Source: Chitinophagales bacterium
GTDB lineage: Bacteria; Bacteroidota; Bacteroidia; Chitinophagales; UBA2359
Length of the DNA: 36,028 nt
Assembly (NCBI GenBank): GCA_020629205.1
Contig: JAHDDV010000002.1
Span: 19,026-55,053 of the forward strand
Reading direction: 5' to 3'
Both the position numbers and the translations under genes were made by a program. Below the pieces are notes generated by a model that had not been told where the DNA came from, did not search any database, and was given only the letters and a program-made list of their open reading frames with translations. This document shows, piece by piece, positions 3,321 through 27,535 of this stretch; positions within the stretch are counted from its first letter, which is position 1, and every line of letters starts with the position of its first letter.

Positions 3321-3399
3321 GCACTATTTAGCCACTAAACCTAGTGGAAATGTAGGTTTTATGCGGGACTTAAAAAAGTGAGAATATCGATTGAGAAGC

Positions 3400-3547
3400 T
3401 AGTGCCTTGGAACCAAATTGATGGACAGTGAGCTTCTCTTTTAGCCAGCTGAAGCGTGAGGAGGATTATAGCAGAGCTATAGGAGCGACGATAGTTAGCG
3501 GAAAGAGAAGCCATTCAAACCGTTCAGGAAATAGGTCCCGGGCACTA
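3400..3547 (+). repeat. Long imperfect palindrome, element D
   Basis: TAGTGCC (3400-3406) pairs with GGCACTA (3541-3547); GCTTCTCTTT (3432-3441) with AAAGAGAAGC (3502-3511); apex TATAGC-AGA-GCTATA (3467-3481). All are centred near 3473. Shares arm and inner sequence with element E. Confidence 0.85.
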
Positions 3548-6322: not shown

Positions 6323-6483
6323 TGCTACGCAAACTAAGTTCGCACCACGTTTAAGGGCTTCTATTTCTGTCATACTTCCTTGCTCGCCAGTCGCGTAGCT
6401 AAGGCTATACTCCCTTCTCGCGCCTCGGTTGGCAAAAAGATAAGCTCATTCAAACCATCCATTACTGTGTTCCCAGGGCACTA
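6320..6483 (-). repeat. Long imperfect palindrome, element E
   Basis: TAGTGC (6320-6325) pairs with GCACTA (6478-6483), dyad 6401.5; apex TAGC-TAAG-GCTA (6396-6407) has the same centre; GGCTT/AAGC arm match at 6356-6360 and 6442-6445. Minus-strand GCCAACCGAGGCGCGAG aligns with plus-strand GCCAGCTGAAGCGTGAG of element D. Confidence 0.8.
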
Positions 6484-6538
6484 GCTAAAAGATAAGCACA
6501 TGCAAACTATCCATCAATTAGGTCCCAAGGCACTAGCA
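6435..6538. repeat. Imperfect tandem duplication, 2 x 52 bp (right arm of element E)
   Basis: AAAAGATAAGCTCATTCAAACCATCCATTACTGTGTTCCCAGGGCACTAGCT (6435-6486) followed directly by AAAAGATAAGCACATGCAAACTATCCATCAATTAGGTCCCAAGGCACTAGCA (6487-6538). Confidence 0.85.
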
Positions 6539-15845: not shown

Positions 15846-15978
15846 GTAAAAATGTAGAGGGGGACTGCGTGCGTCTGGGTTCGACTGGATCGAGAATTTT
15901 GTCAGAATTGAGTTGATTTTTTTTACGGCCTATTCTTTTTTTTGGAGCACAGCAGTTTTCGGCCGTGGCAACTGTTTA

Positions 15979-16112
15979 CTGGCTATCCATTGCAATGCTG
16001 GCACTCTCCAGCGGCTTCGCTGCTGCACTGCATCCGTCTCTCCTATCGTCGAGCCAGCTGCAGTACAGCGACTCAGGCGCTGTATAGCACCAGCATTTCC
16101 ATTTCTATCCAG
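15979..16112 (-). repeat. Long imperfect palindrome, element A, with conserved 20-nt apex
   Basis: Dyad 16045.5. CTGG/CCAG (15979-15982, 16109-16112), AATGCTGG/CCAGCATT (15994-16001, 16090-16097), CAGCG/CGCTG (16009-16013, 16078-16082) and GCTGCACTGCA/TGCAGTACAGC (16022-16032, 16059-16069) all share this centre. 39 of 57 arm positions pair. Apex GTCTCTCCTATCGTCGAGCC at 16036-16055. Confidence 0.9.
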
Positions 16113-16238
16113 GCTATTTGGCCACAGCATTGCTCGCGCTGGCAGAGCTTCTTCAGCCAGACTGAGTATAAACATGTACTTAGTCCAATTGGGAAGATTT
16201 TTTTTTGCTGGAGCGGGCCAAAGCCAGTGAAAATTAGC

Positions 16239-16372
16239 CCCGGGTGAAGCGGTATGAGGTGCTCATATAGCGTCAGTGAATGCCGCTGCGGGGTGGCTCG
16301 GAACGCAGTGGAGAGACGCACTGCAGTGTGCATGAACAGCTAGATGAGTGCCGAGTGAGAGCGGAACACGGG
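16239..16372 (+). repeat. Long imperfect palindrome, element B (opposite orientation to A)
   Basis: CCCG/CGGG (16239-16242, 16369-16372), CTCAT/ATGAG (16262-16266, 16344-16348), TAGC/GCTA (16268-16271, 16339-16342), ATGC/GCAT (16280-16283, 16330-16333), centres 16305-16306.5. Apex GGCTCG-gaacgcagt-GGAGAGAC (16295-16317). Confidence 0.75.
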
Positions 16373-16404
16373 ACGAAAGAAACGCGTACTAAAACTGTTG
16401 GGCT

Positions 16405-16461
16405 CCAAAAAAAGAATCTGTTCAAAAGTCTATCACCAAAAACAAAATCTGTTCATAAGTC
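16405..16461. repeat. Pair of 26-bp direct repeats, period 31
   Basis: CCAAAAAAAGAATCTGTTCAAAAGTC (16405-16430) and CCAAAAACAAAATCTGTTCATAAGTC (16436-16461), 23/26 identical. Confidence 0.8.
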
Positions 16462-27256: not shown

Positions 27257-27324
27257 TACCTGCACAGCGCTCGCTTATGATTAGGGTTTAGTGGCCTCAA
27301 GAGCTTGTTGCTTTTGGGGCTGCC

Positions 27325-27381
27325 CTGTTCTGCGCCACAACAATATATGCATTATTGAACAATTCATAAGGCGCAGCACAG
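27325..27381. repeat. Hairpin CTGTTCTGCGCC / GGCGCAGCACAG with AT-rich loop
   Basis: 27325-27336 pairs with 27370-27381 with one mismatch. Confidence 0.7.
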
Positions 27382-27412
27382 GTCGCGTCATCCGCTAATA
27401 CTCACCTTGCAT

Positions 27413-27485
27413 CCTGCTGTTCAGCTTATGGTAGCTGGGGTCTCTCCTATCGTCGAGCCCCCATCTACCATGCTTCACAAGCAGG
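27413..27485 (-). repeat. Long imperfect palindrome, element C, with conserved 20-nt apex
   Basis: ATGGTAG/CTACCAT (27428-27434, 27465-27471) and TGGG/CCCA give dyad 27449.5, the exact centre of GTCTCTCCTATCGTCGAGCC (27440-27459). Outer CCTGCT/AGCAGG (27413-27418, 27480-27485) is offset by one nt. Confidence 0.88.
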
Positions 27486-27535
27486 CTGACGGCGGCTCGT
27501 TCCGCTCCTACCGCTCAGCCATTCCATCCACAAAT

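Follow-up and report, generated by a model that had tools for sequence, protein, structure and literature searches.

A dispersed palindromic repeat related to Flavo-1 is built to fold on one strand and may be handled as single-stranded DNA

A repeat family with three members in the window

The DNA analysed here (the window, a stretch of 36,028 nucleotides from a Chitinophagales bacterium) contains three members, A, B and C, of a dispersed repeat family in which only one strand is built to fold. We assign a probability of about one half to the reading, drawn from sequence comparison, that B is a non-autonomous, REP/REPIN-like member of the Flavo-1 superfamily, about 200-225 bp long, that is handled as folded single-stranded DNA. 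The family has a strand-specific structure and is under strong selection for pairing; its presence is lineage-specific, its close neighbours are inverted, and synteny breaks fall at its copies. The elements in the window are as follows.

16210..16413, + strand: element B, whole unit (flank conservation profile of 121 copies and motif positions; 5' border approximate, 3' border GCTCC plus A run)
16231..16376, + strand: element B, folded core, a rod with tandem G.A steps (covariance model R1, 125.7 bits, E about 1e-29; structure statistics)
16295..16317, + strand: apex of B, 9-nt class (motif search)
15936..16141, - strand: element A, whole unit, head-to-head partner of B (flank profile, motif positions and pair geometry)
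15975..16120, - strand: element A, folded core (R1, 111.9 bits; Flavo-1 match at 15972-16119, 38.1 bits, E 1.6e-6)
16036..16055, - strand: apex of A, 6-nt class (motif search; the folded strand is the minus strand)
27314..27530, - strand: element C, whole unit with approximate borders (comparison of its flanks with those in L008, L014, L015, L055 and L060; motif positions)
27380..27523, - strand: element C, folded core, subtype with a long 3' hairpin (R1, 85.6 bits; fold)

In the flank profile of the 121 copies, information begins about 25 nt before AUAGCC on the 5' side and stops on the 3' side at GCTCC, which is followed by a variable A-rich tail. The 5' and 3' extensions have a CRCG-NN-CGAA-like motif in common. 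The C subtype (window 27314-27530 and members in L008, L014, L015, L055 and L060) starts differently at the 5' end, in most members with GCGTGAGGGATAG, and has on its 3' side a long extra hairpin followed by a GGGC-rich end and then AAAA.

Two other ways of delimiting the elements were considered and rejected. A and B do not form one element with 23-nt terminal repeats, since each of the inverted repeats is the 3' end of a copy of its own and is also present in singletons. Nor is the 3' A run the T run of a neighbouring gene's terminator, as no consistent hairpin lies beyond it. On the folded strand itself, the elements end in GCTCC plus an A run and not in the hairpin and U run of an intrinsic terminator. 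Solo 3' ends lacking the hairpin were not found in our sample of 20-kb stretches. Two further repeats were seen in the window: just past the 3' end of B (16405-16461), a 26-nt stretch, CCAAAAAAAGAATCTGTTCAAAAGTC, recurs 31 nt on at 88%, and at 6432-6535 there are two tandem copies of a 52-nt unit (81% alike), with a 32-nt inverted copy of the unit end 3 kb away at 3398-3429.

The apex motif and copy number

The sequence-only reading of B had described a palindrome at 16239-16372 with a characteristic apex. Both are present, the core delimited by the covariance model being 16231-16376. The apex, GGCTCG-GAACGCAGT-GGAGAGAC at 16295-16317 on the plus strand, has a middle of the 9-nt class and recurs as the reverse complement in A (16036-16055) and C (27440-27459), so that the window holds three matches to the motif compared with 0.00 expected from shuffles. 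By model R1, B does belong to the family of A and C, in reverse orientation. The apex of B had also been called split, with a middle that is not kept. Its middle does differ from that of A and C, but it is not simply lost: the 9-nt middle represents one of two recurrent apex classes. Class one is TATCGT-like and 6 nt long, and class two consists of GC/AC-N3-GC/GT plus 2 nt (9-10 nt), with outer two base pairs that covary, being either GC..GC or AC..GT. In two copies, L318:16377-16519 and L055:1403-1546 (genome G001), the G.A steps of the cap are swapped for Watson-Crick pairs, GGCTCGCC..GGCGAGAC.

The genome search that the same reading had proposed, using the pattern GTCTCTCC-N4..12-CGAGCC, matched the own genome (5.8 Mb, 579 contigs) exactly at 308 places, 146 forward and 162 reverse, while the reversed-pattern control gave 0. 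Elsewhere, there were 281 exact matches in a same-genus genome, one in a third genome and none in the other 38 relatives searched. The exact apex is carried by 27 of 38 model hits in the sample of 20-kb stretches, and we arrive at a rough estimate of about 430 copies in the own genome, the sample having been picked around known copies. Many apex matches lie at contig ends, as expected for near-identical repeats. Scans of sequence collections with the apex pattern yielded mostly chance matches, and some of the hits were viral; among the loci re-scored with the model, only contigs of Chitinophagales bacterium MAG-174, the nearest named carrier, were real. Relatives detected with R1 span 49 to 143 nt. 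Counting the own genome, 17 of the 149 genomes of this class have a match.

Strand specificity of the fold

We aligned and folded 61 copies, modelled them as covariance model R1, and then realigned its 121 matches. The core forms one rod, in which 39 pairs are distributed over six helices, with conserved internal loops between them and a constant CTC/GAG cap, the constancy of which stems in part from the selection of the sample, as the first 61 copies were chosen by their exact apex. Median pairwise identity among copies is 51%. On the sense strand 94.6% of the stem cells are paired (61.6% when shuffled), and compensatory changes on both sides are found at 35 of the 39 pairs. The covariation score is 0.784, compared with 0.206 for shuffled sequences, and sliding the partners destroys the covariation.

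The pairing statistics of the 119 distinct copies, each read on its own sense strand, are strongly asymmetric. Among stem wobbles, 302 are G.U and 19 are A.C, and opposed bases in the symmetric internal loops are G.A or A.G in 1105 cases versus C.U or U.C in 14. The more stable strand is the sense strand in 114 of 114 copies, with both RNA and DNA energies. All nine mismatches listed for B by the earlier reading are G.A or A.G in the sequence, and its proposal that mismatch polarity follows the element and not the genome strand is borne out by the loop counts. Since polarity is bound to the element and similar copy numbers lie on both contig strands (146/162), a replication-strand mutation bias is excluded as its cause.

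Selection for structure

Between copies that are 90-98.5% identical, 12 changed pairs were compensated, and single changes left a wobble in 7 cases and a broken pair in 6; if the two sides changed independently, 1.1 doubles and 34.8 singles would be expected. In 27 sibling pairs at 80% identity or more we counted 77 doubles (39 transversions, 41 isolated), which lay both in basal and in apical helices. Half-decayed copies, i.e. those scoring between 51 and 12 bits, were not found in an R1 scan of 396 kb. Either nearly every copy is selected for structure, or lineages of copies persist only via a step that requires structure. Template switching from arm to arm might speed up compensation, but it cannot explain the strand asymmetry.

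Genomic context and comparison between genomes

The copies are intergenic, and gaps between convergent genes are overrepresented (25 of 78 copies versus 32 of 210 gaps). In co-directional gaps, 20 copies run with and 19 against transcription. As the fold is strand-specific, action via the mRNA of neighbouring genes should leave an orientation bias. No conserved upstream promoter was seen in the flanks of the 121 copies. This placement suggests a mobile folded-strand DNA repeat over an ordinary expressed RNA.

Neighbouring pairs less than 450 nt apart were inverted in 11 of 11 cases, 8 of them head-to-head and 3 tail-to-tail, which under random orientation has a probability of 1 in 2048. Most of these close pairs combine a copy with a 6-nt apex and one with a 9/10-nt apex, which may be chance. 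Target-site duplications were not found: the mean shared word at the flanks was 4.94, and 4.98 +/- 0.10 with random pairing.

The presence of the elements differs between related genomes. One intergenic gap (L327:554-732) is without an element, and the orthologous gap in the same-genus genome G001 (L059) has one. The orthologous flanks of the left-hand genes of A and C contain neither A nor C. In G001, one element joins two genes that sit at the ends of an inverted block, as a single inversion between B and C would give. In L327 and L325, the remaining clean breaks of synteny coincide with copies, with one exception at 13.9 kb of L327; this was read by eye, on stretches chosen for holding copies. 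At another site (L032:791-933 in one species, L048:824-967 in the other), both have an element after left flanks (about 16-452) that are orthologous, the two elements pointing in opposite directions.

Relation to Flavo-1

The Flavo-1 RNA motif (Rfam RF01705) was described by Weinberg et al. 2010 (PMC2864571). At gathering level, the window had no match to Rfam. Flavo-1 has a gathering score of 42 bits, and A reaches 38.1 bits and other copies 31-36.6 bits, with model positions 1-76, i.e. the full-length basal stem including its internal loops, matched in every hit. B itself had no Flavo-1 match at E 1 in that scan, so its link to Flavo-1 runs via the family. Among the relatives, many canonical Flavo-1 copies are present in G004, G017 and G020, and G041 carries 148-nt copies above the cut-off (50.1 bits). 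One long element of G041 (L064:1501-1643) lies about 70 nt from a TPP riboswitch (1342-1430, 71.8 bits). We place the window elements in the Flavo-1 superfamily as a branch of enlarged size and do not treat them as formal members of RF01705. To our knowledge, no function is known for this widespread RNA family.

Search for a mobilising enzyme

The Y1 transposase domain PF01797 was not found in the own genome (91% complete), nor in the element-rich genomes G006, G011, G017 and G041. A RAYT protein query had no match in the own genome either, where we found no cognate RAYT flanked by copies of the kind that defines REP/REPIN systems. Genome G001 has two RAYT-like HUH transposase genes (L350:1365-1913 and L351:1905-2450, 181-182 aa) that resemble subclass 2.6. 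Both have a copy within about 330-640 bp, the chance of which we estimate at roughly 8-11% each, and this proximity is suggestive only. At 20 RAYT loci of other relatives Flavo-1 did not occur within about 1.5 kb, and other hairpins are present there. An R1 scan of 24 RAYT loci detected no element except at L370, a locus that holds the G001 gene already described for L351. In a set of 61 genomes, the presence of Flavo-1 was associated with the presence of RAYT (odds ratio 8.6, p = 3e-4, uncorrected for phylogeny). The reverse transcriptase domain RVT_1 is present in G000 and absent from the element-rich genomes G001, G006 and G041; a retroposon mobilised by a resident reverse transcriptase was rejected on these grounds.

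Interpretation and rival explanations

The strand of B reading GGCTCG..GGAGAGAC folds into a rod of about 146 nt, made up of paired segments with conserved tandem G.A steps between them and the invariant CTC/GAG apex. If B is handled as folded single-stranded DNA, the fold would be exposed at replication or by strand transfer. A strand nuclease or transposase acting in trans would then read it and thereby multiply or relocate the repeat in the manner of REP/REPIN systems. A and B would represent a REPIN-like inverted doublet, and homologous recombination between inverted copies would explain the rearrangement breaks. The single-strand requirement, the inverted doublets, the indifference to orientation, the lineage-specific presence and the lack of target duplications, which is expected of HUH single-strand transposition, all fit this account. 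The lack of half-decayed copies speaks against it, as this would be unusual for a neutral mobile repeat. So do the searches in which no Y1 transposase was found in the own genome and four other element-rich ones, and the 20 RAYT loci of other relatives at which Flavo-1 did not occur.

The main rival is a structured RNA, a large class of Flavo-1 expressed at numerous sites and kept folded in each copy by a role in the cell. A strand-specific fold with G.U pairs and G.A steps is RNA-like, near-identical copies already show compensation (12 doubles against 1.1 expected), decayed copies are lacking, and Rfam lists Flavo-1 as an sRNA. However, such an RNA would have neither a shared promoter nor an orientation bias towards neighbouring genes, and in F. 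psychrophilum Flavo-1 matches lie sense or antisense to transcripts in no order, many of them outside transcripts (PMC9723704); we thus regard this explanation as somewhat unlikely. We give less credit still to the view that the elements are the REP-like sequences of a Bacteroidetes subclass 2.6 RAYT (TnpA_REP), the gene of which has been lost here or is missing from the assembly. Genes of this subclass are flanked by atypical structures that have copies elsewhere and lack a GTAG foot (PMC6006769), and both the location of the two G001 genes and the co-presence of Flavo-1 and RAYT agree with it, but five element-rich genomes have no Y1 gene, and the RAYT genes of the other relatives are accompanied by hairpins other than Flavo-1.

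The remaining two explanations appear highly improbable. Mutational compensation by template switching, in which changes are copied across between the arms of a DNA palindrome without selection, would account for doubles being as common as singles and for half of them being transversions. Copying between arms acts on both strands, though, and would erase the conserved G.A steps, and it predicts no excess of G.U over A.C, so the observed asymmetry already weakens it. Hundreds of copies with sharp borders, a 3' GCTCC followed by a variable A run, and presence or absence at an orthologous site (L327:554-732 versus L059) could also be expected of a classical MITE moved by a DDE transposase or an A-tailed retroposon copied by reverse transcriptase. 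Against both stand the lack of target duplications, single units without terminal inverted repeats beyond their own palindrome, and the three element-rich genomes in which RVT_1 was not found.

Comparison with known systems

Like REP, BIME and REPIN sequences with their RAYT (TnpA_REP), the elements are palindromes that lie between genes in high copy number, contain built-in mispairs, form inverted doublets (11 of 11 close pairs), fold strand-specifically and show no target duplication. They differ in being about five times longer, with a core of 146 nt where REP hairpins have 20-40 bp, in a conserved 5' foot AUAGCC where these have GTAG or CGTC, neither of which was seen here, and in an own genome without RAYT. 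ERIC or IRU sequences are long intergenic imperfect palindromes of enterobacteria that are similar in size to the window elements. Compared by description, they belong to another phylum, and the window family combines conserved loops with stems that are free to vary through compensated changes.

With Flavo-1, the family shares the basal stem and loops (UAGCC-ccGAU-uGaAG-cGGAAau ... auUguAgCGgAaAGCggGA, the full model being aligned at 30-38 bits) as well as a multi-copy, Bacteroidetes-wide occurrence. It differs from Flavo-1 in its sub-gathering scores in the own genome, a stem about twice as long, an apex with invariant GGCTCG..GGAGAGAC, extensions that are conserved on both the 5' and the 3' side, and its estimated copy number. 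In the superfamily, the shortest matched span is 49 nt and the longest about 148 nt, and a genome may hold up to hundreds of copies. We tentatively propose, as a possibility, that the Flavo-1 "ncRNA" is the small end of a superfamily of folded single-stranded mobile DNA repeats of Bacteroidetes, and that the enzyme spreading them is something other than a resident Y1 transposase or a reverse transcriptase. The Flavo-1 basal stem recurs in hundreds of strand-specific, transcription-indifferent repeats that are paired inverted and mark rearrangement breaks, which suggests that a Bacteroidetes "sRNA" family is really a class of mobile folded-strand DNA repeats. For the study of base-pair compensation, the copies found within single genomes also form an unusually rich natural record.
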